From Bartonella sp. AU18XJBT (lineage in GTDB: Bacteria; Pseudomonadota; Alphaproteobacteria; Rhizobiales; Rhizobiaceae), in the NCBI RefSeq assembly GCF_028618595.1, contig NZ_JAQITE010000001.1, positions 62,001-126,000 of the forward strand: a DNA stretch of 64,000 nucleotides. Reading direction: 5' to 3'. Shown piece after piece: positions 12,266 to 58,675 of the stretch. The notes under the pieces are model-generated. The model was not told the DNA's origin. It was given only the letters and a program-made list of their open reading frames with translations, and made no database searches. A program made the position numbers and the translations under genes. Position 1 is the stretch's first letter. Each line of letters starts with the position of its first letter.

Positions 12266-12638
12266 AAAATTACGGTGACAAGTGTAGAGTGGATTAATGC
12301 TTTTGTATGAAATGCCTAACTTAAGCATTTTATCTGTTGGTTTTTACCATTCTTTCATTCAATATTGGAAGCTTATCTTTTGTGCTAATAAATATAATAA
12401 GCAAAACCCATGATGATAATAGCAATGAAGGCTTCAATAATCAAAACAAGTCAATTTTGCTTTATAATGTTGAATGTTTTTGATTTTATCAGAATAAAAT
12501 ATGTTTATAGCGAAGGCAGTTTTTGTATTGTGACTTAAGAGTATAAAGAAATTTTCATCTTTTTTCTTGCTATTATTGACGAATAAATTCAAGAACCATA
12601 CACCCTATTTTGAAAGAGTGTAATTTTTAGGATAAATA
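12266..12638. other. Non-coding gap between argG and lysS
   Basis: There is no gene on either strand. On the minus strand around 12,372-12,437 an 18-21 codon stretch could encode a membrane-helix-like peptide (IIEAFIAIIIMGFAYYIY). It has no credible start and is closed by a stop just upstream, so at most it is a remnant of a small membrane protein. The last bases before lysS contain the ribosome-binding site AGGATAAATA. Confidence 0.5.
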
Positions 12639-16836: not shown

Positions 16837-19800
16837 ATGACCTATAAACCGCGTGTCTTTTCTATTTCTCCGGGAACTGCTTTTTTGCCTCACTTTGTTG
16901 ATGCACTACTTTCTGGTAGCCTTATTGATAATTTCGCTTCCAGTGGAGATATTCAAACTGCCCTTGCCGATAGCCTTATTTATGTTCCAACACGTCGTGC
17001 TGCTCGCGCTTTGCGTTTAGCCTTTGTTGAAAGAAGTGATACACAATCAACATTTTTGCCAACCATTCGTGCTCTAGGAGATGTAGATGAAGACAGTTTC
17101 CTTTTTGTTGAAAATCATACCAGCACTCTCGATCCACCTCTTGGAGAAAGCGAACGTCTTTTACTTTTAGCGCGCCTTATCCGTCCATGGCGTGAAAATT
17201 TGCCTGCGCATCTGCGTGCCATGTTTGGCACAGAAGATGTACTTATTCCGGCTCATAGTGCTGATGCGATTTGGCTTGCGCAAGATTTAGCACACTTGAT
17301 GGACGAAATTGAAACAGAAGGAGCAGACTGGTCAAAACTTAAAAATATTGCACCTGATATGATCGCTGAATGGTGGCAAATAACGCTCGATTTCTTGACT
17401 ATTGTTACGCAAAATTGGCCAAAAATCTTGACAGAAAGACAACGAAGTAATCCCGCGGAATGGCGTAATCAAGCACTCACAATGCATGCAGAGACTTTAC
17501 GACGCATGCTGCCTGATAAACTGGTCATTGCAGCTGGTGTGTCAGGTTCTATGCCTGCAGTTTCTCATCTTTTAAAAGTTATCGCTTCTTTGCCAAAAGG
17601 GGCTGTTGTTTTTCCTGGTCTTGATCTTCATATGGATGAAGATCAATGGAATGCACTTAGCACAAGCAATGAAGAAAAAACAGTTTGTGATTTTTTTGAT
17701 CATGCAGAAAATGTTTTTAGCCATCCTCAATATCATTTAAAAAAACTTCTAACTCTCATGGACTGTCAACGCGATCATGTTTGCGAAATTGGCCAACAAA
17801 GTATAACAAAGAAAAGACGAATGGCGCTTTTATCAGAAGCACTCCGACCAGCTTCTACGACAGACAAATGGATACAAATTGTTCGTGATGATTATGAAAG
17901 TCTTTGTGCAGATTGGTCATTTATTGAAGCTATCAACGAACGTGAAGAGGCTCTCGCTATCGCTGTTGCTTTACGCAAAGCTATTGAAGAACCCCAAAAA
18001 ACCGCAGCCCTTATTACCAATGATCGTAACTTAGCCCGCCGTGTTGCTGCGGAATTACAGCGATTTGGAATTGAAGCAAATGATTCAGGCGGAATACCAC
18101 TTGCACAAACATTGCCTGTAACGCTCTTACGACTTATCTTAGAAAATGTGTTACAACCTAATGATCCCATTGCTTTTCTTTCTCTTCTTAAGCATCCACT
18201 GACAACACTCCAACAAAACCGTCATCGTTTACGGGAAATGGCAGAAAATTTTGAACTTTTTATTCTTCGAGGGAATACAGGGCGCATCAATCTTTGCGAA
18301 TGTGATCAATTTCTTGAAAAATGGATTGAAACGCACTTTCATAATAGTTCTGAAATCAACGCTCTTGATCAGCAGAAATGTGAAGAAGCACGTCTCCTGT
18401 GTCATCTTTTGAAGAAAGCTGTTGAACCTTTAGCCTCTCTCATGAAACAAGAGAAAGAATGCACCATCAACGAAGCTGCGATAGCAACGGTTGAGGTTTT
18501 TGAAAATTTTGGGCGCAATGAGGATAATTCTCTTGCTCATCTTTATCAACACGAAGCAGGACAAGCCCTATCAAAATTTTTACGTGAATTGGTCAGTGAT
18601 CAATCCGGATTAACATTTCATCTTTGTGAATGGCCCGCTATGTTTTCTGCCATAATAGCAACCCGTTCCGTCACACCCTCGCCTGGAGGACATCCACGTT
18701 TATTCATCTGGGGTACTTTGGAATCACGTTTGCAAACGGTTGATACAGTGGTTATCGGCGGTCTTAATGAAGGGTCATGGCCGATATCAACCCGAAATGA
18801 TGCTTTTTTATCGCGACCGATGAAAATGATGTTAACTCTGGAACCACCAGAGCAGCGTATTGGCCTTTCCGCGCATGACTTTCAATGGGCGATGGGAATG
18901 GATAAAGTAGTGATGAGTCGCGCACTGCGCGTTAATCATACGCCTTCCATTCCTTCACGTTGGCTACAACGCATGGAAACAGTTGTAGGAAAACAGGTTT
19001 GGGAACAAATCCGTGAACGAGGTGAAATACTACGCCATTGGGCAAAGATGCTTGATCATACAAGCATAACTTCTGAGGTGGAACGTCCTTGTCCTGCTCC
19101 ACCTCTTGATATACGTCCGCGTCATTTTTCGGTCACTGAAATAAAAACATTGCGGTATGATCCTTATGCTATTTATGCTAAAAAAATTTTACGGCTCAAA
19201 CCACTTAAAGAACTTATTCATGATCCTAGCGCTTCAGAACGTGGAACACTTTATCATGCTATTCTTGCGGCTTTTTGTACACAAATAAAAAATCCAAATG
19301 CTGCAAATGCACTCAATGTACTGCTTGCTATTGGACGCAAAGAGTTTGATAAATTCAATTTTCCACCCGATATTGAAGTAATTTGGTGGAATAGTTTTGA
19401 AAATCTTGCTCCGCGCCTTATTCAATGGGAACAAAGTTTAGGACTGCGAGAGCGATATTCGGAAGTGGTATCACAAAAAGTCCCTATAGGAACAACAGGG
19501 GTAACCCTTTCAGGACGTGCTGATCGTCTTGATGTTTTGCCAGATAAAACGGTTGAAATTCTAGATTTCAAAACCGGTACCCCTCCTTCATCAAAACAAG
19601 TTCGTGAATTATTATTTCCGCAATTGGCTTTAGAAACAGCTTTACTCATGCAAGGGGGATTCCCAGATTTTCAAGATTTTACTCCCTCAAATTTATTTTA
19701 CATTCCTCTTAACAAAAAAGGTGAAATTAAATCCCAATCAATTCTTTTAAAGAAAAAAGACGGCAAAACTTACCTAACTGCTGTTAATCTTGGTGAAAAT

Positions 19801-24712: not shown

Positions 24713-25210
24713 TCATATCGATGTTTTTTTAAATGTGCGAATTGCAAAAGATTGTTGCAAACGTTCAACGGAATGTTGTGCTGATCTGAGTGTTACATGA
24801 CGCCCATGTGCTTGATATTGTAAGGTAAGTGCAAAAGTGGCGAGCTCTAAAAGAGCTGTACTTCTTTCTGGCCATTCAACAAGTAAAATATTTTTCTCAC
24901 GCGCTTCATGAAGTCCTAATTCATCAATTTCTTCTGCCATAGAAAGGCGATAAAGATCAGCATGAATAATTTCAAACTGTGGAAGTTGATAGCTTTGCAC
25001 AAGAGTAAAAGTAGGGCTTGGAACATCCATAGTGTTATTGTTCGCAAGCGTTTGGATGATTGTACGTGCAATGGTTGACTTTCCAGTTCCAAGATCTCCT
25101 TGCAGCGTTACAAGATCTCCTGGCTTTAAAGAAAGAGCTAAATTTTGTGCAAAAAGCTTTGTTACCTCTTCATTTTCAAGAAAAAAACTAAAATTCATTA
25201 AAAGTTCCAT
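24713..25210 (-). CDS. tsaE: tRNA threonylcarbamoyladenosine biosynthesis ATPase TsaE
   Basis: This 165-residue P-loop ATPase supports the TsaB-TsaD complex in making t6A37 on ANN-decoding tRNAs. Walker A is GDLGTGKST, followed by PSPTFTLVQSY and HADLYRL. The start could be ATG 25,210 or the in-frame ATG at 25,198 (MNFSFF); neither has a strong ribosome-binding site. The rhizobial fusion partner or neighbour AmgK-type kinase is absent, so the gene stands as TsaE alone. It lies about 40 nt downstream of the DivL-like gene and may be co-transcribed. Confidence 0.92.
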   Translation of the reverse strand: MELLMNFSFFLENEEVTKLFAQNLALSLKPGDLVTLQGDLGTGKSTIARTIIQTLANNNTMDVPSPTFTLVQSYQLPQFEIIHADLYRLSMAEEIDELGLHEAREKNILLVEWPERSTALLELATFALTLQYQAHGRHVTLRSAQHSVERLQQSFAIRTFKKTSI

Positions 25211-25249
25211 GAAATGGATGAAAAATTTTTGTTATCATAAAGGTTAAAA

Positions 25250-27715
25250 TTAAAAAATCTTATCTCCTTTGGAAAGTGGGAAAAAACATTTAACTGTTGT
25301 TCCTTTTCCAGAACCGGTAAGAATTTCAACATGTCCACCGTGTAGTTCAACGAAACTTTTCACAAGGGAAAGTCCAAGACCCGCTCCTGCGCGCCCACCA
25401 TGGTGTGAATGAGAAGAAAAACGTTTAAAAATACGATTAAGGACATCTTCTGGAATATCAGAGCCTTCATTGTGAACGCTAAAGACAATGTTATCATCTT
25501 GTTCATCGACGCAAAATTCAATAGTGCTTGCCTCCGTTGCAAAATTAAGTGCATTACTCAGTACATTCACAAAAATTTGATGTAAGCGTTTTTCATCAGC
25601 AGAAATAGAATTTAAGGAAGGAGAAATTTGTTGTAAAAGCGTAATATGACGTCCATTAAGGCGATCTTCTACACGTGCTACTGCTTGTATCATAGCATCG
25701 GCAATGTTAACCGATTTTATGTCCAACTCCATAATGCCTGCATCAAGAGTAGCAAGATCAAGAATATCGTTAACAATATTTAAAAGAGTTCCTGCTTCTG
25801 AATGAATGTGCCCAAGATATTCTTGTTGACGTTGATTGATAGAGCCAAAAATTTGATCACGTAAAATATCCGAAAATCCGATAATATTGGTGAGAGGTGT
25901 ACGCAACTCATAAGAAACATGTTGGACAAATTCATTACGCAAACGATCAGCACTTTCTAATGCTTCATTTCTTTCTTGAAGAGCACGGGCAACATGGACA
26001 GTATCCGTAACATTTACAAAAGTAAGCATCGTTTGTCCATCAGGAAGAGGGACCAGAGTATAGTCAATAATCATATCATTTTTAAGCTCTATACGACCTG
26101 AATATGTTTCACGTTTTTCAGCAAAACCGGTAATGAATTTGGTAAATTGATCCCATTCTTGTCCTAAGGTTAAGGCTGAACAATGGCTTTGTAACTGTGT
26201 AATATGGGTCCCTTCTACCAGTAAATTATAAGGAAGCGACCACAATTTCGACAAGGCAGGATTCGATAAACGAAGGCGTCCATCAGTACCAAAAACAACC
26301 ACGCCTTCGGAAAGTTTATCAAGTGTTTCACCTTGTATTTTAATAAGTGTATTATAACGGCGTTCAAGATCAATTTTTTCTGTAAGGTTTTCGTAAAGCC
26401 AAGTGACACCTCCTTGTGGATGAGGGTTAGAGATAACACGCACCGTACGCCCATCTGGAAGATTCCAAATTTGTTGGTTCGATTCTGTTTGTCGATAGGC
26501 TTTAAAAAGTTCTTCTTTCCATGCGCGCCAATCGGGGTGTTCAGCAATGAGCCCTTTTTCACGTAGACGTTCAAGAAATAATGTATGGCTTGGTTCACTT
26601 TCTAAAAAGGAAGTCTCCAACGGCCATAAAATTTTAAAAGCATGATTACAGAATTTTAATTTTTGGTTTGTATCAAAAATGGCTACAGCTGTTGAAATTT
26701 GGTCAAGTGTTTCACAATGGCTTTGAAGGACATATTTTAATTCATGAGCAAGATTTTCATATGCGCTGTCATCACGCGCAAAAGCTGCCATACCTTCGTC
26801 TGTTGTAATGCGTGTGAGATGAAAACGATGTCGTTCTCCGTCAATAACTGTGTGAACATGTTCTTGAAAAATTGTTTCTGTTTCATCTGTTTTGCGTTGT
26901 GTATTTTCATTGAAAAGATCCCCCACTTCATCACTGTCTTCACGAAAGTCTGTCATTTCTCTAAAGGCGCGATTGATAAAACAAACTTTTCCTTTACAAT
27001 CTTTTATCCATACAGGCTCTTGAATAAGATCAAGAAGATTACGCTGCATTCTCAGTTCAGTAAGAAGACGGGCGATATCTTTCTGTAAACGAGCATTTTC
27101 ACTCTGTTGTTTTGAGATATCTTGAAAACGAGCAATAGCGACTGTTCCTGCGATGACTCCTGTAACTTGTAGCAGCACATTGTTTGTGGTGGTGATAGAA
27201 AGATCAAAAGGGTGACATTGACAACGTAGTTGAGTCAATGCATAATCAAGTTCTCGCAGAGAATTTTCTTCAACCCAGAGCTCAAAACGCTGAAAATCTT
27301 TCTGATCGATTCCTATTTTTTGCAATGCAGAAAGAGCACCAACGACACGGGGTAAGGTTGTTGGATTTTCCCAAATAAGAAGGAATTGCTCGGTTTCTTC
27401 CAGAAGCCATTCATAATATTTAAGTTTTTCAGAAAAATTTGCCTGAAGTATCTTCAAAGGCTTCTGTGCAGTTTTTTTTGCACGCATGATAACAGCCATG
27501 CACGTGAGAAGTGAAGCACAAGAAATTCCTCCACACAGCGCTAAAAGCAGCCATGGACCATTGGGCAAAGTGAAAGAAAATGGTAAATAACTTTCCAATG
27601 ACTGAGCAACAGCGCGTGTTGGAGAAAAAAAGAAAAAAAGGCAAAATACATACGTATAGATTCGAATCACTCTTTGAGCTTTTTCTTTGGGGTTATAGTC
27701 ACCAAAGCTGAGCAC
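25250..27715 (-). CDS. DivL-like PAS sensor kinase with tyrosine in the H-box
   Basis: The 821-residue membrane sensor has two N-terminal hydrophobic segments (about 17-37 and 53-79), a linker and three PAS-like repeats. These are recognised by EPVWIKDCKGKVCFINRAF, VAIFDTNQKLKFCNHAF and VVVFGTDGRLRLSNPAL. A dimerisation/kinase core follows. The H-box reads FVQHVSYELRTPL: the phospho-accepting histidine is replaced by tyrosine (about residue 602), as in Caulobacter DivL, which controls CckA-CtrA cell-cycle signalling. The ATP-binding N, G1 and G2 boxes are still present (FVNVLSNALNFA, VHNEGSDIPED, GAGLGLSLVKSF). I chose GTG at 27,715 (AAGGGAAAGATGCC upstream); the open frame reaches 27,829 but overlaps ahcY. 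It follows ahcY in the same operon. Confidence 0.8.
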   Translation of the reverse strand: MLSFGDYNPKEKAQRVIRIYTYVFCLFFFFSPTRAVAQSLESYLPFSFTLPNGPWLLLALCGGISCASLLTCMAVIMRAKKTAQKPLKILQANFSEKLKYYEWLLEETEQFLLIWENPTTLPRVVGALSALQKIGIDQKDFQRFELWVEENSLRELDYALTQLRCQCHPFDLSITTTNNVLLQVTGVIAGTVAIARFQDISKQQSENARLQKDIARLLTELRMQRNLLDLIQEPVWIKDCKGKVCFINRAFREMTDFREDSDEVGDLFNENTQRKTDETETIFQEHVHTVIDGERHRFHLTRITTDEGMAAFARDDSAYENLAHELKYVLQSHCETLDQISTAVAIFDTNQKLKFCNHAFKILWPLETSFLESEPSHTLFLERLREKGLIAEHPDWRAWKEELFKAYRQTESNQQIWNLPDGRTVRVISNPHPQGGVTWLYENLTEKIDLERRYNTLIKIQGETLDKLSEGVVVFGTDGRLRLSNPALSKLWSLPYNLLVEGTHITQLQSHCSALTLGQEWDQFTKFITGFAEKRETYSGRIELKNDMIIDYTLVPLPDGQTMLTFVNVTDTVHVARALQERNEALESADRLRNEFVQHVSYELRTPLTNIIGFSDILRDQIFGSINQRQQEYLGHIHSEAGTLLNIVNDILDLATLDAGIMELDIKSVNIADAMIQAVARVEDRLNGRHITLLQQISPSLNSISADEKRLHQIFVNVLSNALNFATEASTIEFCVDEQDDNIVFSVHNEGSDIPEDVLNRIFKRFSSHSHHGGRAGAGLGLSLVKSFVELHGGHVEILTGSGKGTTVKCFFPLSKGDKIF

Positions 27716-27749: not shown

Positions 27750-29147
27750 TTAGTAACGGTAATGGTTTGGTTTATAAGGTCCTTGTGGTGTGACTCCAAT
27801 ATAGGCGGCTTGTTCTTCTGATAAAACACTTAATTTTATTCCTAACCGATCAAGATGTAGACGTGCAACTTTTTCATCAAGATGTTTAGGCAAAACAGTG
27901 ACTTCATTTGTATAGTGTTCTGCACGGGTAAAAAGTTCAATTTGCGCTAAAATTTGATTAGTAAATGAAGCTGACATGACAAAAGAGGGATGCCCAGTCG
28001 CATTACCGAGGTTTAACAAACGCCCTTCAGAGAGCAAAATGATGCGTTTTCCATCGGGAAAGGTGATCATATCAACTTGTGGTTTAATATTCGTCCATGG
28101 CAAATTTCTAAGAGCTGTGACTTGGATTTCGTTATCAAAATGACCAATATTTCCAAGAATACACATATCCTTTACTTGTCGCATATGGTCTAAACGAACA
28201 ACATCTTTATTGCCTGTTGTCGTGATGATAATATCAGCACTGGAAGCAGCATCATCCAAATTAACAACTTCATAGCCATCCATAGCTGCTTGAAGAGCGC
28301 AAATAGGGTCAATTTCTGTTACTTTAACACGAGCTCCAGCACCAGAAAGAGATGCTGCTGAACCTTTTCCCACATCACCATAACCACAGACAATGGCAGT
28401 TTTACCAGCGATCATCACGTCTGTTCCACGTCGAATACCATCAACCAATGATTCTTTACATCCATATTTATTATCAAACTTTGATTTAGTGACGCTATCA
28501 TTGACATTAATAGCAGGAAAAGGCAGAAGCCCTTCTTTTTGTAACTGATAAAGACGGTTTACACCTGTTGTGGTTTCTTCGCTTACACCTTTTATTGCTG
28601 CACGCTGTCGTGTAAAAAATCCTGGTGTTGCATCTAGGCGCTTTTGTATTTGTTTGAAAAAAATTTCTTCTTCTTCTGTTTTGGGATGCGAGAGGATATC
28701 TTTATTTTGTTCTGCACGACTTCCCATTAAAATATAGTTTGTGGCGTCAGCTCCATCATCTAAAATAAGATTAGAAGGATTACCATCTGGCCATTGGAAA
28801 ATTGCATCTATATAAGTCCAATATTCTTCCAATGTTTCACCTTTAACGGCGAATACAGGAATACCAGTTGCGGCGATAGCTGCTGCTGCATGGTCTTGCG
28901 TAGAAAAAATATTGCTAGAGCTCCACCGTATATCGGCGCCAATTGCTTTTAATGTTTCAATTAAAACAGCTGTTTGAATTGTCATGTGCAATGAGCCAGA
29001 AATACGCGCTCCGCGCAAAGGTTGATTAGAGGAAAACTCCTTGCGACAAGCCATCAAACCAGGCATTTCAGTTTCAGCAATATCAAGTTCTTTACGACCA
29101 TAAGCGGCAAGTGCAATATCTTTGACAACAAAATCTTGAGCTGCCAT
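27750..29147 (-). CDS. ahcY: Adenosylhomocysteinase
   Basis: The 465-residue NAD-dependent enzyme splits S-adenosylhomocysteine into adenosine and homocysteine, relieving product inhibition of methyltransferases. The NAD-binding loop is [33 protein letters not shown] and [17 protein letters not shown] near the N-terminus, and the C-terminal PYKPNHYRY, are typical. AAGGA lies 8 nt before the ATG. I looked for a SAH riboswitch upstream and saw no convincing fold. It probably heads an operon with the DivL-like kinase and tsaE. Confidence 0.97.
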
Positions 29148-47019: not shown

Positions 47020-48984
47020 ATGGTATACCAGGCAAGAATTTTGTTAAAATCAGGGACTGTGCGCTGTGTATTTATAGGCTTGTGTTTCGCTTTTGCTTTT
47101 CCACAGCCACTTGCTGCATTTGATTTTTTCGGCATACCTTTTTTTGGTCAAAAGAAAACAAATTCTCCTTCAAATTATGCCAAAAGTACAGAGAGATTTT
47201 ATAAAGTTGATGTTGTTGCTCCGCCAGGCGCGCCATTAGAAGGTATAAAAATAGTTAAATCTGTTTCTTCTCTTGTTGCTGATAAAGAGAAAGCATCCGC
47301 CAGTTCTTCTGGTTTGCTAGCCAAGGCGCGTTCAGATTATCGAGCAATTCTTTCTGCTCTTTATGCTGATGGACGCTACGGTGGTGTTATTAGTATTAAA
47401 ATTAATGGCTTAGAAGTCGCTGATTTAAGTCCGGTAACTCAACTTCCAGCACAATCCAATATTGTTATTACAATTAATGCCGGTCCACAATATGTTTTTA
47501 GTATTGCAGATATTGATAAAGTAGCTCCGTTTGAAAAACGTAAAGCGCATAAAATGCCCACAATTGAAGAATTGGGCTATAAAGTTGGGGCTATTGCTAA
47601 ATCTGAAACCATTTTGAAAGCAGAAAAATGGGCGATAGAAGGATGGCGTCAACAAGGTTATGCCAAAGCTAAAATTATGAAAAGTGAGGTCGTGGCTGAT
47701 CATGCTGCGTTGCGTGTTGAAGGACGGATTGTTGTTGATCTTGGACAAAAGGCTCATTATGGTCCTTTAAGTGTGCGTAATATAAGTAATAAACCACGTG
47801 TAGATTCAGCTTATATCGCATGGATGACCGGATTGAAGCAAGGTCAGAAATACGATTCCGATGCCTTAGCGAAGGCAAATGAACGTCTTGCGCGCCTTGG
47901 TGTTTTTCGTGCTATCAATATACGTGAGGCTGATACCATTAATCTAGATGGCAGTTTACCGCTTTCACTTGTTGTACAAGAACGTAAACCGCGTCGTTTT
48001 GGTGTAGGCGGTAGCTATTCAACATTAGATGGTGCTGGTTTTGAAGCTTATTGGATGCATAACAATCTTTTTGGTCATGCAGAGGTTCTTAAAATTGAAA
48101 CAAAAATAAGTGGTGTTGGTAGCAATAAAAAGCAATCGTATAATTTTAAAAATTTTGATTATCTTTTCGGTGGTACGTTTATAAAGCCTGGTGTACTCAC
48201 GCCAGATACAGATCTCAGATCAGAATTAAAAATACAACAAGATGTTCTAGAAAATTATACGACAAAGGCCATCAAAGGAAGATTAGGGATTACACATATT
48301 TTCAATGGTAATCTATCGGGACAGGCTGCTGTAGAAGTTTCAAATGGTTATTCACGTGATATTTATTTTGGGAGCCGTAATTTTACAACAATAGGTTTCC
48401 CTAGCGGTTTGATTTACGATAGTCGTAATAATAAGCTTAATGCAACAAAAGGTTTATATGGTGAAGTTTTCATTGAGCCTTTTTATGAGATGCGTTTTAG
48501 CAACTTTGTTGCAAAAGTAACAGCAGAAGGTCGTTCTTATTGGGCGTTGGATGAAGGGAATCGTTTTGTTTTTGCTACGCGGGCAAAGCTTGGTACAATT
48601 CTTGGGAATGATACAGCACAAATCCCCGCGAATACGCTTTTTTTTGCTGGTGGTGGGGGCTCTGTTCGTGGTTATGCTTACCGTAATATTGGTATCAAAA
48701 CAGAAAATGATGCGGTTGTTGGTGGACGGGCAGTTGTTGAGGGATCGGCAGAATTGCGTGTTTCTTTAAATGATAAAATAGGGTTTGTCGGTTTTCTTGA
48801 TGGAGGTGCCGTAGGGGAAAAGGCGAATTTTGATTTTTCTCAAAAAATTAAATGGGGAGCCGGTATAGGAGGTCGTTATATGACGGGTCTTGGTCCTTTA
48901 CGCGTTGATTTAGCCTTTCCTTTAAAGAGAGAGAAGGGTGATCCTCGCATTGGTTTTTATGTGGGTATAGGGCAAGCATTTTAA
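47020..48984 (+). CDS. tamA: TamA, Omp85-family outer-membrane assembly protein
   Basis: The 654-residue outer-membrane protein has a signal peptide (VFIGLCFAFAFPQPLAAF), three POTRA-like repeats (to about residue 320) and a C-terminal 16-strand barrel. FFAGGGGSVRGYAYRNIG is the conserved Omp85 loop-6 region. It ends in IGQAF, with the terminal phenylalanine expected for Bam-dependent barrels. With TamB it helps insert a subset of autotransporters and move phospholipids. ATG at 47,020 is favoured over GTG 46,996. Its stop overlaps the tamB start (TAATG). Confidence 0.9.
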   Translation: MVYQARILLKSGTVRCVFIGLCFAFAFPQPLAAFDFFGIPFFGQKKTNSPSNYAKSTERFYKVDVVAPPGAPLEGIKIVKSVSSLVADKEKASASSSGLLAKARSDYRAILSALYADGRYGGVISIKINGLEVADLSPVTQLPAQSNIVITINAGPQYVFSIADIDKVAPFEKRKAHKMPTIEELGYKVGAIAKSETILKAEKWAIEGWRQQGYAKAKIMKSEVVADHAALRVEGRIVVDLGQKAHYGPLSVRNISNKPRVDSAYIAWMTGLKQGQKYDSDALAKANERLARLGVFRAINIREADTINLDGSLPLSLVVQERKPRRFGVGGSYSTLDGAGFEAYWMHNNLFGHAEVLKIETKISGVGSNKKQSYNFKNFDYLFGGTFIKPGVLTPDTDLRSELKIQQDVLENYTTKAIKGRLGITHIFNGNLSGQAAVEVSNGYSRDIYFGSRNFTTIGFPSGLIYDSRNNKLNATKGLYGEVFIEPFYEMRFSNFVAKVTAEGRSYWALDEGNRFVFATRAKLGTILGNDTAQIPANTLFFAGGGGSVRGYAYRNIGIKTENDAVVGGRAVVEGSAELRVSLNDKIGFVGFLDGGAVGEKANFDFSQKIKWGAGIGGRYMTGLGPLRVDLAFPLKREKGDPRIGFYVGIGQAF

Positions 48985-51900
48985 TGAAAAAAGGTGTACA
49001 TTTATCAGCTTTCTTCTTTGTATTTTTGTTTTTTGGGGTGGGTGGTTTTGTTTTTGCGCAAAGAGGAGATACTCTTCCCTCTAGCGAAATGAAAACAGAT
49101 GATCGCTCATGGTTTGTTTCTTTAATTGAACGAAAGCTTTCAACGCCCAATCGTCAAGTTCGTTTACATAATATACAAGGGACACTGTCTTCTCAAACAT
49201 CAATTGATGCTATTACTGTCAGTGATAAAAAAGGGGTTTGGCTTAAAATTACCAATGCTAAAATGGATTGGAATCGTCTAGCGTTGCTGAGAGGGCGGAT
49301 GGACATTAACCAGCTTTCGGCAGAACAGGTCGCATTTTTACGCAAACCGCAAGGCAATTCTTCTTTTGTTTCTTCCCTTGGGACGGGCAAGTTCTCTTTA
49401 CCAAAATTGCCGCTTGCTCTTTCTATCAATACGCTTATAGCTCAACATGTGACATTTGAACAGAATCTTTTTGGTTTTTCTGCTGATATGTCATTAAAAG
49501 GTAATCTCACTTTGGCTAGTGGTAATTTTGATGTCGATATAGCGGCGCATCGTTTAGATGCACCAGGTTCTTTTTCTGTTGTCACCAAGATATCTGATAG
49601 TAATCGTACAGCTCAAATTGATATTTCTGCTAACGAACCACAAAATGGTATTTTGGCGAATATTTTTAACATTGAACAACGTCCAGCATTAAATCTCGTC
49701 GTGAAAGGTGATGGTACTTTTGATGATTTGGTTATCAAACTTTCTTTAGAGTCCGATCATCATTCTATTTTAGATGGTAATGTTATTCTTGCAAGTGTTC
49801 CAGAAGGACACAGTTTTTCTACGAAACTAGAGGGAACACTGAGCCCTTTAATACCTTCTCAATATCGTAGTCTCTTCGAATCTGATATAACATTAAAAGC
49901 AAAGACAAGAAGAACAAAAGAAGGTGTGACACACCTTGATCAGATGGTTATTCAGAGCAAAGCAATGAATGTTATAGCCAATGCTGAAATAACCGCTGAT
50001 GGATTTTTGCGGCGGCTTTTTGTTGATGGTAAAATGGCTCTTGATAACGAACAGGAGTCTATTCATTTACCTGTATCAGAAGTATCAAAACCTGCGAATA
50101 CTCTTGCTTTGAACATTGACTATGGTCGCGAAGGACAACAATCTTGGAATGGGCGGTTGGTTGTAGGTCATTTAAGCAATAAAAATATTTATATTCGCGA
50201 TGCAATTTTTGATATGGGAGGAGTAAGCGAAAATCTTGATAATGCAGCTTCTCGTCATGTTGGTGTTCAGGTTAAAGGAACGCTTCAAGGGGTTAAAAAA
50301 ATTAAGGGAGCGTTAGTAGAAAATTTAAGCCAAGCGGTTCATGTGCATTTAGATACGGATATTGTTTCGAATAAACCAATTTTGATTCATGATCTGAGTG
50401 TTACGGCTCAGGGTTTTTCTTCTTGGTTAAAAGGGACAATGGAGGGTTTTGTTTTTAAAGGCGATCTCGGTTTAAAAGCTCAAACATTAACTCCTTTGGA
50501 AGTGTTCAGTAAACAATCACTTTCTGGTATTGCAGATATTAAAGCCAAAGGAACGATCAATTTATTGAGTGGCATTTTTGATCTCCAATTATCAGGAATG
50601 GCTGACGATATGAAAATAGGCGTGCAGTCTTTTGATCGTTTATTCAAAGGAAACATCACTCTTTCAGGTGGTGCTACTCGAAATACGAAGGGTTTCATTT
50701 TTCGTCATTTTAATTTGAAAAATCAATATACAAACATAAAGGCTAACGGTTATTTTTCAGATGAAAGCGCTAAAATGGATCTATCTGCTGAAATATCTGA
50801 TTTGTCCAAATTAGATCCAAAGATAAGCGGTGCGCTTACGATTGAAAGTACGGCGAGAGGGCGCAATAGCCATATAAAACTAAATACACGTGCTCATATT
50901 GCTGAAGCATTAATCGTAGGGAAGAAACTTCAAAACACAACATTTAACATAGATGCACTTATAGATAATACAGCACCAGTTATTGCTTTAACGGGGGTGG
51001 TAAAAGGTGAAGGGATTTTTGCTAAGAAACCTTTGCATTTATCGGCCTCTTTTAAAGATTCTCATAAAATTCGAAAACTTGAAAATATCGATATTAGAGG
51101 GGGAAGTGCAAAAATAACGGGTGCTCTTTCTCAACAACTTGGGGGGTTTTTGAAAGGAGCGTTGCATATTGATGCCGATGATATTTCCGTACTTTCAGCG
51201 TTATTTTTGCAGGATGGTAGTGGAAAAGTAAAAGGAGATTTTATTTTTGATGAACAAAATGGCAGACAAAAAACCAATGTGAAGGCGCATGTTAGCCATT
51301 TGAATTTTTCCAAGAATAAAATAAAAAAATTGGCAATAGATGCTGACATATTCGATCCTTTTGGCATGACACAGTTTGAAGGAGTTATCAATGCAGAACA
51401 TATTCAAACACCTTTGATAATGGTCAATCGTTTAAATGCTCACGCCGATAGAAATAATGGACAAACGGTTTTTACTGTCCAAGCGATGTTGCATGATACT
51501 CTCAATGCACAGCTTTCTGGTCGTTTAATGGTTGAGGAACTTCCAGACAGTATAAAACGAGAAGTGCAAATTGAAACTGTGGATCTAAAACAACACATTT
51601 TTCATGCAACATTGCTGAAACCATCCATAATTGCTTTTGATAAAGATGGAATGACAATCAATGAATTAGGAATTGCAATAAATGGAGGCAACATCATCTT
51701 AGCAGGGAATATTCAAGATACCCTGAATTTGCAACTTACAATGAATGCGCTTCCTGCTACTTTAGTCAATCTGTGGAAAGCCGATCTTGGAGCAGCAGGG
51801 AGTGTAACAGGGCATGTTATGATTCGTGGTCATTTAAAAAAACCTGATATAACGTACGATATAAAAGGTGAGGGACTGACAACCGTTGCTTTTCAAGATA

Positions 51901-53642
51901 AAAAAATTATGCCTTTTTCTCTTTCTGCTACGGGAAACACTGTAGATCAAAATCTTACTTTAAATGCAAATTTAACAGGAGAAGGAGTACAAGCAGAAGC
52001 TCAGGGGCATGTATCTCTAGAGAAAAATACGCTTGATCTTCATATTAATTTGCAAAATTTATCTGCACGTTTGGCGAATGGTTTTATTGCAGGACAAGCG
52101 CTTGATGGGACACTGATAGGCAAAATTGATATTGGTGGAATAATGAAGGATCCATCTGCTCATTTTGAGCTTTCTAGTCAAAATTTAACCGCTATGACGC
52201 ATAAAGGACCAATGTCAATCAATATAAATGCTCGTGGTTCTTATAAAAAATCGACATTTCATATTGAAAATATGATAGCTACTGGAGATAAAGGATTAGA
52301 TCTTTCCGTCCATGGGCCTGTATCTCTTAATGGTTCAGAGGCAAAATTAAACGTTAAAGGGATAATGCCTCTTGATTTTGTTAATCTCTTATTAGCTAAG
52401 CGTGGTGCACATATAACGGGTACAGCAAGAATTGATACAGTTCTTAATGGAACGTTATCAAAGCCACAATTGATAGGAAATATTTCTATAGGCGACGGTA
52501 GCTTTTTTGATTCACAAACAAATGTAGGATTGAATAATATAACGCTTGAAGGCAAATTGAATGGTGATCATATCCTTATAGAGAAAGCTTCAGCTTCTTC
52601 GTTTGAGGGGGGGAGAATTTCTGCTTCAGGTCGTATCTCTAATGGTCTAGAGACAGATTTGATATTTCATCTTGATAATGCCAATTATAATGATGGTTCT
52701 ATGATTCTGGCAACATTGTCAGGTGAGATGACAATGAAAGGTCATTTTTTAAATGATCTTGTTGTTGGTGGTGATATCATCGTTGAAAAAGCTGAAGTTT
52801 TTGTTCCTGATCATTTTAAAAGTGCTAAGTTTCTTGATATTAGAAATAAGAATTTAACTAAATCGATTCAAACAACACTTGAACGTGCTGATGTTAAGAA
52901 AACGAACAAAAGCAAAAGCCGTATAGTTACACAAGAATCTTCATCTGTCGTGTTATCAAATATGAGTATTACAGCACGCAATCAATTTTTTGTACGCGGA
53001 AAAGGCTTAGATGCTGAACTTGGAGGACGCATTAATCTAGCAGGCCCATTGAATGATGTGCATCCAGTTGGTGAATTTAGAATGATTCGTGGACGTTTTG
53101 ATATTCTTTCGCAACGTCTTAATTTTGATCAAGGGCAAGCGAGTTTTAGCGGTAATCTTAATCCTACGGTTTATTTTGTAACCAACAATAACAGTGGTGA
53201 TATTCGCGTCACTGTAACGGTAAGTGGGACGGTTGATAATCTTGATATTAATTTTTCTTCACAACCAAATTTGCCTCAGGATGAGATTTTAGCGCGTTTG
53301 ATTTTTAATCGCTCTCTTAATGAATTATCACCATTTCAGATTGCTCAACTTGCAGCAGCAGTGGCGGATCTTGCAGGTGCTTCTAATACATCTTTATTGA
53401 ATACTTTACGAACTAAAATTGGACTTGATGATCTTGATGTTATCGTTAATGAGAAGGGTAATACAGGCTTACGTATTGGACGCTACATACACAATAATAT
53501 TTATTTGGGCTTTGAAGCAGGGTCTGATGGAACGACGAAAGGGACAATTAATTTAGATATTTCGCGTCATCTCAAAGCTAAAGGTGCCATAGGAAATGAA
53601 CAAAATTCTAGTATTGGTCTCTTTTATGAAAGAGATTATTAA
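48984..53642 (+). CDS. tamB: TamB, translocation and assembly module inner-membrane protein
   Basis: The 1552-residue protein has one N-terminal membrane anchor (about residues 8-25, FFFVFLFFGVGGFVFA). A very long periplasmic beta-taco region of AsmA-like repeats follows, and the C-terminal DUF490/TamB domain (RGRFDILSQRLNFDQGQASF, PQDEILARLIFN, GLRIGRYIHNNIYLGFE). It spans the periplasm and contacts TamA. The start overlaps the tamA stop, so they are translationally coupled. Length is in the normal alphaproteobacterial range and no frame break is seen. Confidence 0.93.
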   Translation: MKKGVHLSAFFFVFLFFGVGGFVFAQRGDTLPSSEMKTDDRSWFVSLIERKLSTPNRQVRLHNIQGTLSSQTSIDAITVSDKKGVWLKITNAKMDWNRLALLRGRMDINQLSAEQVAFLRKPQGNSSFVSSLGTGKFSLPKLPLALSINTLIAQHVTFEQNLFGFSADMSLKGNLTLASGNFDVDIAAHRLDAPGSFSVVTKISDSNRTAQIDISANEPQNGILANIFNIEQRPALNLVVKGDGTFDDLVIKLSLESDHHSILDGNVILASVPEGHSFSTKLEGTLSPLIPSQYRSLFESDITLKAKTRRTKEGVTHLDQMVIQSKAMNVIANAEITADGFLRRLFVDGKMALDNEQESIHLPVSEVSKPANTLALNIDYGREGQQSWNGRLVVGHLSNKNIYIRDAIFDMGGVSENLDNAASRHVGVQVKGTLQGVKKIKGALVENLSQAVHVHLDTDIVSNKPILIHDLSVTAQGFSSWLKGTMEGFVFKGDLGLKAQTLTPLEVFSKQSLSGIADIKAKGTINLLSGIFDLQLSGMADDMKIGVQSFDRLFKGNITLSGGATRNTKGFIFRHFNLKNQYTNIKANGYFSDESAKMDLSAEISDLSKLDPKISGALTIESTARGRNSHIKLNTRAHIAEALIVGKKLQNTTFNIDALIDNTAPVIALTGVVKGEGIFAKKPLHLSASFKDSHKIRKLENIDIRGGSAKITGALSQQLGGFLKGALHIDADDISVLSALFLQDGSGKVKGDFIFDEQNGRQKTNVKAHVSHLNFSKNKIKKLAIDADIFDPFGMTQFEGVINAEHIQTPLIMVNRLNAHADRNNGQTVFTVQAMLHDTLNAQLSGRLMVEELPDSIKREVQIETVDLKQHIFHATLLKPSIIAFDKDGMTINELGIAINGGNIILAGNIQDTLNLQLTMNALPATLVNLWKADLGAAGSVTGHVMIRGHLKKPDITYDIKGEGLTTVAFQDKKIMPFSLSATGNTVDQNLTLNANLTGEGVQAEAQGHVSLEKNTLDLHINLQNLSARLANGFIAGQALDGTLIGKIDIGGIMKDPSAHFELSSQNLTAMTHKGPMSININARGSYKKSTFHIENMIATGDKGLDLSVHGPVSLNGSEAKLNVKGIMPLDFVNLLLAKRGAHITGTARIDTVLNGTLSKPQLIGNISIGDGSFFDSQTNVGLNNITLEGKLNGDHILIEKASASSFEGGRISASGRISNGLETDLIFHLDNANYNDGSMILATLSGEMTMKGHFLNDLVVGGDIIVEKAEVFVPDHFKSAKFLDIRNKNLTKSIQTTLERADVKKTNKSKSRIVTQESSSVVLSNMSITARNQFFVRGKGLDAELGGRINLAGPLNDVHPVGEFRMIRGRFDILSQRLNFDQGQASFSGNLNPTVYFVTNNNSGDIRVTVTVSGTVDNLDINFSSQPNLPQDEILARLIFNRSLNELSPFQIAQLAAAVADLAGASNTSLLNTLRTKIGLDDLDVIVNEKGNTGLRIGRYIHNNIYLGFEAGSDGTTKGTINLDISRHLKAKGAIGNEQNSSIGLFYERDY

Positions 53643-53920
53643 AGATTAAATTTAAAAAACAAATTCTTCGTTTTTTGTCTCTCATTTCTAAATCTGAGGA
53701 AGGAGACATAGACTAGAAATCCTACAAAAGAAGAAGCTTTTTTTGAGGCATAAAGAAATATATCTGAAATACTTGATTTTTGTTTATGCTATTCTCTAAA
53801 GGGGAAAAATCTTCACAAAAGACAGTGTGTTATTTTGCTGTTATATATTTATTGTAGAGAAATACCTTACCTTGTTCTCAACCCCATCTCATGCTGTTGC
53901 CTAAAGAATGTAATGTATGC
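53643..53920. other. Gap after tamB
   Basis: No gene is present. A weak 6-bp stem (TGTCTC at 53,677 with GAGACA at 53,704) could aid termination of tamA-tamB but lacks a clear T-run. Confidence 0.35.
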
Positions 53921-54430
53921 AATATATTGATTTATAAAAATAATTTATCATTATTCAATTTGAATTAGAACTTTGAATATCATATGATTCTCTCATTGCG
54001 AATCTTTCTTATGTTGAATCAATCAAAAACCATTCGCCTTGCATGTTACAAGCGGGGAATCCTGTGTGGATAAAACTATTAAGAAATGACTAAAAATGCC
54101 TCTTATGAACCATTTCGAGAGTTAAGGCTGTCGCAACATTAGGGGCTGGCAAAATAGCGTGAATGGTGCGGGCTTGTTACTCCACAAGATTAAAGATAGG
54201 AGGTAATGGATTTATCGTTATACAATTCACGGACGTTATCGCGAAATGGGCTTGGGGAGGATTTTGAGGGAGGTCTCTTTAAAACAAGCATCTGAATTTG
54301 CAACACAATGACATTCTGTTTTTGCGTGAAGGACATGATTCCATTAAAGAACGTGATAAACAAAAGCATGAGGCAAGCGGTTAATCCATAAAGATAATCA
54401 ATTTTATTGTCAAACGCATTTAAAGCCATA
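53921..54430 (+). pseudogene. Integrase relic p5 (left arm of the plasmid-bearing pair)
   Basis: This is the best readable plus-strand copy. The leader AATATATTGATTTATAAAAATAATT and TTGAATCAATCAAAAACCATT are followed by ATGCCTCTTATGAACC at about 54,096. Frames interrupted by stops and shifts then give IYRYTIHGRYREMGLG, EVSLKQASEFATQ and, after a shift, REGHDSIKERDKQKHEAS. These match, in order, the arm-binding domain of alphaproteobacterial phage integrases. Homology fades around 54,430, where plasmid-like sequence begins. Confidence 0.85.
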
Positions 54431-54447
54431 TTTTTTAATAATAAACA

Positions 54448-54700
54448 TTACCTATCTGGACTAGCTGTCATGACGTATTCAACTGCTAGCACAGCGTTTT
54501 TACGTCGTTTTTCTGGTAGTAAATTGCGCATTTTTCCCATTGCTTCACTGGATGATTGGGATACATGATGTTCATTGTTTTGTGTTTGATCCTTATCAGC
54601 ATTTGGTGTTTCTCGTTCACGGTAGCAGTGTTGCAGAGCAGCAGCCACACAGTCCATTGTTGCTAGCTTTTTACAACCGCATGATCGCATATACCGCCAT
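54448..54700 (-). pseudogene. MobV-family (Mob/Pre) relaxase, truncated and frameshifted
   Basis: Reading from ATG 54,700 (AGGGG 5 nt upstream), the product starts MAVYAIMRL. A TAA stop and one-base shift at about 54,672 interrupt it, and it continues KKLATMDCVAAALQHCYRER, ETPNADKDQTQNNEH and KRRKNAVLAVEYVMTASPD before a premature stop. These are consecutive N-terminal segments of MobV relaxases such as MobM of pMV158. The His in LQHCYRER (about residue 24) corresponds to the nucleophile region of MobM. The HxDExPHxH metal motif and everything beyond are missing. An oriT-like site lies just upstream, and the gene is followed by integrase relic p5. Confidence 0.82.
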
Positions 54701-54776
54701 ATCTGCCCCTATCTGTTATTCAACTGTTTTACTTGGGGCATCGCAAGGCGGTACCTCCGGTGGTCCACCATAAATT

Positions 54777-54808
54777 GTGTAACTCACTAGACTTTATTAC
54801 ATAAAGTC
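54777..54808 (-). other. oriT-like site of MobV type
   Basis: On the minus strand, a perfect 8-bp inverted repeat (GACTTTAT and ATAAAGTC, 3-nt spacer, 54,790-54,808) is followed by TAGTGAGTTACAC (54,777-54,789). The pMV158 oriT as I recall it has the same layout: an ACTTTAT/ATAAAGT repeat, then TAGTGTG with the nick before TTAT. The site lies 77 bp upstream of the mob start, as expected for this family. Confidence 0.7.
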
Positions 54809-54864
54809 GTTTGTGGCTAAAGCCCTTTTTGATGCTGGCTAGCAGAAAAAAGCACTTCCTTCTT

Positions 54865-55009
54865 ATCATGATTCTGGAGCCGTGCGGGAACGTAAAAACA
54901 ATCCGTTAGGTTCTGGGTCAAGGTCGCCGTTAGGCGCCCCGAAGGGATTGCCTTGACCCTAAGAACCAAGGATTGTTAGTTCCCAAAAGCACGGCTTTTA
55001 GATCATGAT
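54865..55009. repeat. 145-bp T-shaped palindrome between oriT and repL
   Basis: Matching arms from outside inwards are ATCATGAT (both ends), GCCGTGC/GCACGGC, GGGAAC/GTTCCC, ACAATCC/GGATTGT, GGTTCT/AGAACC and GGGTCAAGG/CCTTGACCC. The top carries two mini-hairpins, CGCC-GTTA-GGCG and CCC-GAA-GGG, giving a T or Y shape. It is much more GC-rich than the surroundings. It could be a single-strand replication origin of a rolling-circle-type plasmid, or a terminator shared by two operons. Confidence 0.7.
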
Positions 55010-55051
55010 TTTGGTGAGTGTACGGAGAGTTTGAGAGCCGGTAGCCTCTCA

Positions 55052-55622
55052 TTACTCGTTTGAATCATCAAACATATCTAGGGTACTATCGTCCTTTTTT
55101 TCGTTTCTTCTTCGTTGAATAACGGTTGTAAAGGCAATTCTATCGCCATTGAAAATAAGGTTAGGATTGATAAAGTACCACCCTTGTCGTAAATGTTTAG
55201 CGATGATTTGAGCGCTTTCTAGTTCGGTTAAACCACATGCGAAAGTAGGAAGAGAAAGTGCTATTTTTTTCTTTATTGGTTTCGAGAAAGTCGTCTAAAG
55301 CTAGTTTATCTAATGGTACTAGATCTTTGCTTATTCCTTTTTCCTGCAACATCCAGACTAGTACTCCAAAAGCTTTTATTCCTGCTGTTTTTAATTCAAA
55401 AGTTAGAGCAATATTATTTGTGAATAGTTTTATAAACTCTTGCGAATCCACTCGTCGAAAAGTCGTTACATGAGTGCCTTGCATTTCACCAGTTGATTGA
55501 TTGATTAAAACATTATCGTCACGTCCTAATCTTGATAATCGTATTCGTTGATTTTTTATAGGAACAGTCATTCCCTCAATAAATGGATTTTCTTCATATC
55601 GAATAGCTTTTATTTTTTTCAT
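55052..55622 (-). pseudogene. repL: RepL-type plasmid replication protein, one frameshift
   Basis: From ATG 55,622 (GGAGGG upstream) the frame encodes MKKIKAIRYEENPFIEGM, IRLSRLGRDDNVLINQSTGE, then KAFGVLVWMLQEKGISKDL and LALDDFLETNKEK. A one-base insertion in a run of seven A (about 55,266-55,272) throws it out of frame. In the corrected frame it continues TFACGLTELESAQIIAKHL, RQGWYFINPNLIFNGDRIAF and ends at 55,052, for about 189 residues. The C-terminal winged-helix region with 'WYFINPN..FNGDR' is typical of RepL replication initiators of small plasmids. The uncorrected open frame runs to 55,197. A chromosomal plasmid gene this complete suggests fairly recent capture. Confidence 0.8.
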
Positions 55623-55655
55623 ATAACGAATAGCCCTCCAAACAGAATACTCCAA

Positions 55656-56075
55656 AATATAACGCTATTGTGTTGCAAGTTCATGTGCTTGTTTTAAAGA
55701 AACATTTCTCAGTGTGCACTTAAGCCTATTTCATAAGATTGCTTGTGAAATGGTATAAAGGACTTCTTATGAATGCTATAAAATACATATTACCGTTATT
55801 AATAAAGGTATAAGTATTTATTAAAGGTATAAGTCGGCATTATCATTCTATTTTCCAGCGTCTCATGTTGCCGACAATCTTTTCATTTGAAAATGTAGAG
55901 GTATTTTTATTGCTTATCTTAAGAGTTTTTTTGCATATTCCTCTTATGATGTACACCAAGTGCTTTTGATTAATTCATCATAAATATAAAGAAAATTTGT
56001 AATGAACAAATTACACCTTATCTTTTATTTAAGATATAATATAATAAATTATGATTATAAATCAAAGTATTAATA
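55656..56075 (-). pseudogene. Integrase relic m4 (right arm of the plasmid-bearing pair)
   Basis: Read on the minus strand from 56,075, the leader ATACTTTGATTTATAATCATAATT is followed by a decayed start AATACCTCTACATTTTC. Later come FHKQSYEIGLSA and FLKQAHELATQ, equivalent to HGRYREMGLG and SLKQARELATQW. Homology stops at about 55,656, a few bases before the repL ribosome-binding site. It is inverted relative to relic p5. Confidence 0.75.
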
Positions 56076-56908: not shown

Positions 56909-58675
56909 TTAGGAGGTATGTTTTTTGAACTGGATATTATGAAGTTTTTTATAAAACCCATGTTCTTTTTCTAGCAATTCTTTTTGAGTACCTTGTTCAA
57001 TCAGTTGTCCATTTTGTATGACCACAATTTTATGAGCACGAGCAATCGTTGAAAGGCGATGAGCAATAATGATCGTTGTGCGTCCTTTGGTAAGGTGATG
57101 AATGGCTTCATTAATTTGTGCTTCGGTATGTGAATCGAGCGCGCTTGTTGCTTCATCAAGAATCAGAATTTCACTATCGTGAATCATTGCTCTAGCAATA
57201 GCGAGTCGTTGTTTTTGTCCCCCTGAAAGATTACAACCATTATCGCCTATCTGTGTATCATAACCATTTGGCAAATTCATAATAAAGTCATGAGCATTTG
57301 CTGCTTTTGCTGCTGCGATAATTTCATCATCACGAGCGCCTTCTTTTCCAAGCCCAATATTATATTTAACGGTTCCTTGAAACAGAAAAGTATCTTGCCC
57401 TACATAGGCCATTAGGTTTCTCAGAGAACGAAAAGTTGTGTAGCGAATGTCTTGATCATTAATCAATATGCGTCCTTTTGTGGGGTCATAAAGGCGCATA
57501 ATAAGATTGATAAGGGTTGATTTTCCTGAACCAGACGGCCCCACCAATGCGGTCATTTTCCCGGCTTCTATTTCTAGATTGATGTCTGTCAATACCATTT
57601 TGTTATCAGTATATGCAAAAGAAACATGCTCGAAACGAATAGCTCCTTGCGTTTTATTCAGATCTTTAGCTTCTTTATGCTCTATAACTGTAAGGGGACG
57701 ATCGAGTATTTCAAACATCGTACGAATATTGACCAAGCCAGATTCAATTTTAACACGGACATTTGCGAGTCTTTTTGCTGGTTCATAAGCTAAAAGTAAA
57801 GCAACAATAAAGGACATAAATTCACCTTGAACACCTGCGCGTTGGGTTGCAAGGTAACCGGAAAAGCAGATAATACCTGCAATGGCAACACCTGTGAGTG
57901 TTTCCATAATCGGATTGGTAATAGCTTCAAGTGTTGCAATATTGTTTGTTTGTTTTTCAACATCACAAATGGCTTTGTCCATCCTTTTTTTCATGACTTC
58001 TTCTAGTGAAAAAGCCTTGATGACTCGAATACCAACAGCCGTTTCCTGCACGATTTTTATAATTTCACCAAGTGAAAGAAGTTCTTTTTCCATAAGGCGG
58101 CGAACGCGTTTTAAAGCCATTCGAACACCTAAAAAAGCCAGTGGTCCTACGATTAAAGTAATGGAGATTAACACAAAGTTTTGAATAAACATGACAAGCA
58201 ACAGACCACTAACAGAGAGCAAATCACGTACAAAAGTTGTGATAATCGTATCAATGATATTACGCACGGCTGTTGCATTATGGGTTACGCGAATAAGCAG
58301 ATCAGATGACGTGTTATTATGATAAAAGGAGACACCTTGTTCCATAAGGCGCGCATAAATTTTGCGTTGTTGTTCAGCAATGATACTGTTGCCTGCTTTG
58401 CTTAAAAAGTAAGTTTGGGCAAAAGTTGCAATCCCTTTGAGAATAAAGATAAAAGCAATGAAGCTAGAAATCAAAACGATCATAGCAAAATTCTGCGCAT
58501 CAACAATATAATTAACAACATCACGCATAATCCACGCACTGGTTGCAGTTGTGCAAGAAATGATGATCATTGAGATAATAGCTGCACTGTACCAACGCGC
58601 ATGTTTATGAAAATTTTCCCGCAAAAGGCGGATAACAAGATGTTTATCAAAAGAAGAAAGTTGTTTTTTGGCCAT
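56909..58675 (-). CDS. ABC exporter, MsbA-like fused permease-ATPase
   Basis: The 588-residue half-transporter has six predicted membrane helices (residues about 20-310) and a C-terminal ATPase. Walker A is GPSGSGKST, the signature LSGGQKQRLAIARAM and Walker B ILILDEATSALD, with the switch His in IIAHRLSTI. It would act as a homodimer. The organisation matches lipid A flippase MsbA and related multidrug exporters; substrate is not proven. Next to other envelope genes a lipid role is plausible, but the gene is monocistronic, so context is weak. Confidence 0.88.
   Translation of the reverse strand: MAKKQLSSFDKHLVIRLLRENFHKHARWYSAAIISMIIISCTTATSAWIMRDVVNYIVDAQNFAMIVLISSFIAFIFILKGIATFAQTYFLSKAGNSIIAEQQRKIYARLMEQGVSFYHNNTSSDLLIRVTHNATAVRNIIDTIITTFVRDLLSVSGLLLVMFIQNFVLISITLIVGPLAFLGVRMALKRVRRLMEKELLSLGEIIKIVQETAVGIRVIKAFSLEEVMKKRMDKAICDVEKQTNNIATLEAITNPIMETLTGVAIAGIICFSGYLATQRAGVQGEFMSFIVALLLAYEPAKRLANVRVKIESGLVNIRTMFEILDRPLTVIEHKEAKDLNKTQGAIRFEHVSFAYTDNKMVLTDINLEIEAGKMTALVGPSGSGKSTLINLIMRLYDPTKGRILINDQDIRYTTFRSLRNLMAYVGQDTFLFQGTVKYNIGLGKEGARDDEIIAAAKAANAHDFIMNLPNGYDTQIGDNGCNLSGGQKQRLAIARAMIHDSEILILDEATSALDSHTEAQINEAIHHLTKGRTTIIIAHRLSTIARAHKIVVIQNGQLIEQGTQKELLEKEHGFYKKLHNIQFKKHTS

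Follow-up and report, generated by a model that had tools for sequence, protein, structure and literature searches.

Introduction

The RepL plasmids of staphylococci are classed in one account as rolling-circle plasmids, whose sso is orientation-specific and relies on RNA polymerase for priming (PMC5703833). Their sso sites are also described as points of recombination (PMC5703833, PMC5037232), and in one proposed model it is the genes lying between dso and sso that pass from plasmid to plasmid (PMC5037232). The sso of ICEBs1 is reported to resemble those of rolling-circle plasmids, and second-strand priming after conjugation is stated, in a discussion of ICEs, to be little known for most elements (PMC4595007). 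Frpo/ssi single-strand promoters, which belong to conjugative leading regions, are presented as DNA with secondary structure located on the side of oriT that enters first (PMC11541004).

The plasmids closest to the locus studied here come from Bartonella itself. Plasmid pKM19s of Bartonella tribocorum (NC_010615.1; 3,321 bp) carries RepL, oriT, MobV and copies of the hairpin element described below, while pBGR1 and pBGR2 of Bartonella grahamii (NC_006374.1 and NC_004308.1) have a RepL and MobV module. Here we describe a relic related to these plasmids in a window of 64,000 nucleotides, the whole stretch of Bartonella sp. AU18XJBT DNA that was analyzed. The relic is familiar in kind, but through it we came upon a conserved element by which transfer-competent plasmids appear to be marked throughout Bartonella.

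A plasmid fragment between tamB and an ABC exporter gene

The plasmid-derived DNA runs on the minus strand from position 55,622 to 54,456 of the window, about 1.16 kb (1.2 kb when rounded). It is flanked by tamB on the left (48,984-53,642, plus strand; TamB match, E 6.2e-47) and by an ABC exporter gene on the right (56,909-58,675, minus strand; ABC_tran and ABC_membrane matches). An earlier note, made from the sequence alone, had placed a captured cryptic plasmid between these two genes at 54,431-55,655. Both neighbours were confirmed, and the span does contain plasmid DNA but is slightly too long. The repL-like gene, palindrome, oriT-like site and mob gene named in that note were all recovered, consecutively and in the minus-strand order repL, hairpin element, oriT-like site and mobV 5' fragment. 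The host contig is 235 kb long with chromosomal flanks and belongs to a 161-contig draft assembly; a truncated piece within such a contig is a relic and not an autonomous circular replicon. A search of the 161 contigs gave no second high-identity copy and no free copy of the plasmid. We regard the segment as a captured piece of a mobilizable plasmid of the RepL/MobV kind, a relative of pKM19s and pBGR1, with a probability of about 0.93 that applies to the capture alone and leaves the role of the hairpin element aside. Such a relic is a familiar kind of finding, and the capture itself is well supported.

The repL gene consists of two overlapping open pieces in different frames, as expected from the single frameshift that had been noticed in it. 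The first piece (55,200-55,622, minus strand; 141 codons), whose start codon is the site of the 5' joint with the chromosome, has no Pfam match and shows 94.4% identity to pKM19s RepL over 124 of its 141 residues by tblastn. The second piece (55,055-55,294, minus strand; 80 codons) matches Pfam RepL (E 3.5e-5, 23.8 bits) above the cut-off of 20.3. The protein searches thus identify a frameshifted copy of a RepL-family initiator as found on plasmids of the pKM19s/pBGR1 type.

The MobV-type oriT-like site (~54,770-54,810, minus strand) comprises an inverted repeat and a downstream block common to pKM19s and pBGR1. Judged by its conservation with both plasmids, it is a putative oriT upstream of mobV. 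It may resemble the oriT of pMV158. The mobV 5' fragment (54,451-54,708, minus strand) is an open frame that holds about the first quarter of the gene and is cut off by the right-hand joint. A protein search gave a match to Pfam Mob_Pre, the MobV family, just below the cut-off of 25.5 (24.0 bits, E 3.9e-5), and the DNA gave matches to mobV genes: the stretch 54,440-54,860 matched 271 plasmid records and lay within annotated mobV in 12 of the 15 listed. Across oriT and mob the DNA is 87.5-89.3% identical to pBGR1 and pKM19s. Compared with mobV as read in pKM19s, the reading frame of this piece differs from that of the first ~8 codons. The relaxase gene had thus rightly been called truncated, but the frameshift near its start had been overlooked, and its end is the joint and not a product of decay.

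Because repL is frameshifted and mobV is both frameshifted and truncated, the chromosomal piece is probably inert. The decay that had been proposed for it amounts to two small frameshifts; the 98.4% identity of repL to pKM19s, and the fact that mob stops where the joint lies, instead point to a recent capture.

Relationship to known plasmids

When the repL stretch was compared by blastn with 72,556 plasmid records, 46 records matched. The best match was pKM19s, with 98.1% identity over the whole stretch, and the expected free plasmid with the same module thus exists in a form with nearly the same repL. Base by base, the alignment to pKM19s gave 559/568 identities in repL (98.4%), 188/205 in the hairpin element (91.7%) and 342/383 in oriT and mob (89.3%), the element, oriT and mob being 88-92% identical to pKM19s and pBGR1. 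The step in identity between the repL and mob parts is significant (Fisher 7.7e-10). Plasmids pKM19s and pBGR1 differ from each other far more in repL (68.3% identity) than in mob (88.6%), and the two halves therefore have separate histories. On the evidence of these alignments, the captured fragment is a mosaic.

The window also differs from its closest relatives in gene order. In pKM19s and pBGR1, mobV is convergent with repL, whereas both have the same direction in the window. Plasmid pKM19s furthermore carries two inverted full copies of the element, an extra RepL paralogue and 34 bp more between repL and the element, which in the window starts ~2 bp past the DNA shared with repL. Two inverted copies are also present on pBGR1, which has 87.5% identity in mob; the repL of pBGR1/pBGR2 is just 68.6% identical to that of the window. 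Zymomonas mobilis pZMOBP6 (NC_017185.1) does have repL followed by mobV in the same direction, its repL being 73.8% identical over 87% of the query, but it lacks the hairpin element. The shared direction of repL and mobV in the window thus has a counterpart in pZMOBP6 and none in the closest plasmids. It may come from an isomer that arose by inversion between copies of the element, or from a plasmid with this gene order that has yet to be sampled; since the closest plasmids carry mobV in the other orientation, the exact donor is not among them.

The paralogue on pKM19s (300-818) bears the annotation of a helix-turn-helix protein but matches Pfam RepL with 29.8 bits, and so adds a second gene of the RepL family to this plasmid. 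A gene that adjoins the element on pBGR3 is 80.5% identical to it.

The capture site

A 4.3-kb region around the fragment was searched in 71 Bartonella genomes, and the seven with collinear flanks (G021, G025, G040, G052, G054, G055 and G066) were aligned. In place of the 1.16 kb of the window, each of them contains only a short sequence (~41 bp in the closest genome), and they thus provide the empty site that a capture predicts. The chromosome/plasmid joint on the repL side (55,612-55,626) shares ~2 bp and the plasmid/chromosome joint on the mob side (54,450-54,462) ~1 bp. No target duplication was found at the capture site, and ~41 bp of the site are lost. With 1-2 bp shared at each joint, the site fits capture by illegitimate recombination or end-joining rather than integration; the replacement is read from the comparison with the relatives, and the joining mechanism is inferred. 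Some part of the plasmid segment is matched in 40 of the 71 genomes. Ancestral chromosomal genes were rejected as a source, as repL, element and mob occur together in none of the other 70 Bartonella genomes among the matches listed.

The earlier note had seen no site of entry other than the integrase relics on either side. The left relic (53,917-54,376, plus strand) is the 5' part of a tyrosine integrase gene and belongs to a repeat family with 45 further matches listed in the same genome, a full-length member of which is a tyrosine integrase (PF00589, PF13356 and PF22022). The right one (55,649-55,711, minus strand) is a short inverted relic of 63 nt with 78% identity, also present in the empty-site relatives. 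Both relics are thus real, but they are older than the capture because the empty-site relatives carry the same flanks, and they do not mark an entry site. Site-specific integration through the flanking integrase, which the relics on both sides might suggest, is accordingly hardly credible, the more so as the relic's family is so widely repeated in the genome and the joining cost ~41 bp and left no target duplication. It is also very improbable that plasmid reads were misjoined into a chromosomal contig. The assembly is a draft of 161 contigs and closely related free plasmids exist, but the segment is frameshifted and truncated inside mobV, its mob half is 89% identical to known plasmids and so well short of ~100%, the joints lie at 1-2 bp of shared sequence and not at a repeat, ~41 bp of the site are missing, and the assembly holds no separate copy of the plasmid.

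For the favoured capture of a plasmid fragment, we propose that a mobilizable plasmid with RepL and MobV, akin to pKM19s and pBGR1, broke, and that a 1.16-kb piece reaching from repL through the hairpin element and oriT into mobV, of which it took roughly the first quarter, was joined between tamB and the ABC exporter gene in place of ~41 bp. On the plasmid, RepL would have started replication and MobV would have nicked oriT.

The integrase repeat, up to ~450 bp long, is dispersed in the genome, with some copies at contig ends. Five copies that were inspected overlap open reading frames of 379-400 aa, and the one tested by Pfam is an integrase. A separate chromosomal relic of a pBGR1-like plasmid was observed in another genome (G055:C2:408,087-409,502). 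Its mob part is missing, repL is matched in two frames, and one partial and one full element copy are present in the native order.

A conserved hairpin element

The large palindrome reported between repL and oriT proved to be a conserved element of ~205 nt (~54,848-55,054, minus strand), composed of a small hairpin, a conserved linker and a long forked hairpin. It is asymmetric, with the small hairpin and the nearly invariant linker on its 5' side. Folded as single-stranded DNA, the window copy reached -54.8 kcal/mol (z -9.04), which none of 200 shuffles equalled, and the other strand folded with a z of -7.85. Like an sso, it is a conserved, hairpin-forming and non-coding element.

For an alignment (A1), we collected 46 copies that covered at least 165 of the 221 query bases, and 43 were left after removal of three identical ones. 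Of these, 41 (40 distinct) were aligned, a truncated copy (L073) and the pKM19s copy spanning the record start being omitted, and the pBGR1 copy that spans its record start was entered in part. The alignment gave a structure of 73 pairs with 90.0% paired cells, a percentage most favoured by the derivation of the structure from the consensus. Both sides of a pair had changed in 80 cells; slid controls had 11-25 such cells and shuffled alignments 26.8, with none of the 500 shuffles reaching the observed number. The covariation score exceeded those of all 500 shuffles, while two weaker measures were reached by 2 and 18 of the 500. Unaided, RNAalifold found 25 pairs, 7 of them with compensatory changes.

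Among the mismatched hairpin pairs in A1, read on the strand in the direction of repL, A-C (131) outnumbers G-T (63). The excess may reflect a mutation bias, or else the element may function as a single strand in its complementary form; the counts are suggestive of the complementary strand and were not used to choose a strand, as the columns are non-independent. A scan confined to the window copy of the element revealed neither a sigma-70 promoter nor a terminator-like site. The sole Rfam match, to ZFAT-AS1_1 (E 0.5), was below the gathering score and was treated as chance. We also rejected an attC-like reading based on GCCTAAC, as this motif lies at the tip of the hairpin and not at its base.

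Distribution of the element and its link with transfer genes

Within the collections searched, the element is, by its sequence matches, restricted to Bartonella. It was found in eight of the 72,556 plasmid records, all from Bartonella, and a scan of an 84,980-species collection for the exact pattern gave 19 stretches, again all from Bartonella. In 199 genomes of the wider family, the exact pattern was present in two of three Bartonella and in none of the 196 others. A phage or viral origin was rejected, since neither blastn against phages nor the exact pattern in viral contigs gave a match. At E <= 1e-15, the element was detected in 30 of the 71 Bartonella genomes.

A relaxase gene is annotated on each of the eight element-bearing plasmid records, and those records that are typed in PLSDB are MOBV, MOBQ or MOBP; pBHa is called non-mobilizable there, yet has an annotated traI. 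Eight Bartonella plasmid records have a RepC match, and among the seven of them that were listed the five with transfer genes have the element, whereas the two without transfer genes (pBT01 and BM1374166) lack it. Of the 71 genomes, 18 have a match to MobA_MobL or Relaxase, and the element occurs in 15 of these (the exceptions being G037, G046 and G063) compared with 15 of the 53 others (Fisher 6e-5, kinship ignored). A link with RepL is seen as well, with the element in 13 of 16 genomes that have a RepL match and in 17 of 55 that do not (Fisher 5e-4; 71 genomes). RepL homologues were found on seven of the eight element-bearing plasmid records, including annotated or unannotated ones on pBHa, pTLV-1 and pOE11-1, and were missing from both element-free RepC plasmids. 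The exception is pTT0105, where the element is present three times and RepL gave no match at E 1e-3; it separates the link with transfer from that with RepL and therefore favours transfer. The element was absent from the RepL plasmids of Zymomonas and E. coli, of which one each was checked.

In the genome of the window, the element is present at five other places, three of them on contig C80. This contig carries a relaxase gene and close homologues of TraA, TraG, ParA, HigA/RelE and other proteins of pBGR3, and is probably a conjugative plasmid of the same strain or an integrated form of one. Two RepL homologues not annotated as RepL were observed on each of the RepC plasmids pBHa (12,266-12,604 and 12,841-13,365) and pOE11-1 (27,928-28,509 and 28,745-29,053).

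Position and orientation of the element

Element and relaxase gene occur together on 16 contigs, three of which were treated as circles. In 15 of them the element is situated 5' of the relaxase gene; G001 is the exception. As oriT of pVbh is placed between traA and traCD (PMC5675462), the 5' side of the relaxase gene is the oriT side for this type. The nearest copy is 2.3-3.9 kb from the relaxase gene. In MOBQ contigs it is 2.7-3.2 kb away and opposite in orientation to the relaxase gene (9/9), and where a further copy exists this has the orientation of the relaxase gene (7/7), so that both orientations are present. In MOBP contigs the nearest copy is in the relaxase orientation (7/7). Nine traG genes are followed by a copy in their own orientation, at a distance of 22-47 bp in eight cases and of ~540 bp in one; TraG identity is 82-93% in unannotated loci with the element.

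Inverted copies bracket variable genes, among them those for a YdcK-like beta-solenoid protein, RelE/HigA and small unassigned proteins. On conjugative Bartonella plasmids the YdcK-like gene is repeatedly found beside the element, for example at 25,171-25,839 of pBGR3, at 18,496-19,161 of pTT0105 and at similar loci.

Possible function of the element

Our favoured reading, for which we would put the chance slightly short of even, is that the element is a single-strand priming site resembling sso or ssi; such a site would on the plasmid have primed second-strand synthesis, and most likely also marks cassette boundaries. It is suggested by the covariation, the transfer-linked distribution and the precedent of an sso common to ICEBs1 and rolling-circle plasmids, whereas the lack of a promoter-like site in the window copy, the occurrence of both orientations on MOBQ plasmids and the nearly identical link with RepL speak against it. 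As described for the sso of rolling-circle plasmids and ICEBs1, the element is a hairpin common to small and conjugative elements, flexible in position and associated with recombination points (PMC5703833, PMC4595007, PMC5037232); unlike these, it was found here in Bartonella only. With Frpo/ssi promoters, as these are portrayed in PMC11541004, it may have in common that structured DNA is placed where entry begins at oriT, but it differs in that the window copy contains no promoter-like -35/-10 hexamers. By analogy, a form of sso/ssi specific to the genus may be at hand. The two inverted copies of pKM19s and pBGR1 would then serve opposite strands, one matching repL and one the convergent mobV; with repL and mobV in the same direction, as in the window, a single copy would suffice.

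The element could instead be a mere recombination boundary, the end of a cassette with no function on single strands. Its inverted pairs bracket variable gene sets on plasmids, the window copy starts 2 bp past the repL-shared DNA where pKM19s has 34 bp more, and the repL and mob parts differ in history (Fisher 7.7e-10), but covarying hairpin arms and a link with relaxases are not what a boundary predicts, and we consider it unlikely; the staphylococcal sso sites, which are described as recombining too (PMC5703833, PMC5037232), leave an sso compatible with the same observations. A double-strand origin dependent on RepL, or another target of RepL, would account for the RepL-family genes on seven of eight element records and on neither element-free RepC plasmid, for those adjoining the element on pKM19s, pBGR1 and pBGR3, and for the genome counts (13/16 against 17/55). 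With three copies on pTT0105 in the absence of a RepL match, and with one RepL plasmid each of Zymomonas and E. coli that does without the element, this is likewise unlikely. That the element is transcribed into a structured RNA, or terminates the transcription of convergent genes, is quite improbable even though it often follows traG, repC or repL by tens to hundreds of bases, as it is also found upstream of divergent genes, the window copy has no terminator-like site, Rfam gave nothing above chance level, and the excess of A-C over G-T leaves the repL-direction strand with no wobble signature.

Taking the priming site and the cassette boundaries together, we tentatively picture a forked hairpin private to Bartonella that would act on single-stranded DNA, sit on the entry side of oriT and prime or promote synthesis on the incoming strand, with inverted copies acting as exchange points for cassettes between small and conjugative plasmids; the window would then hold one such recombinant frozen in the chromosome. 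As a whole this picture is somewhat doubtful. No earlier description of the element was found in the passages and listings obtained from open-access literature, a scope that excludes the original 2003 pBGR1 paper. One compact element is common to three relaxase classes (MOBV, MOBQ and MOBP), and its role can be tested on a small plasmid.

A further inverted pair of elements was observed in another genome (G068:C1:217,916-218,682), around ~380 bp that are also found between elements in G055. An 82-aa open reading frame between these elements has no Pfam match, and the pair adjoins DNA resembling the RepL-paralogue region of pKM19s.
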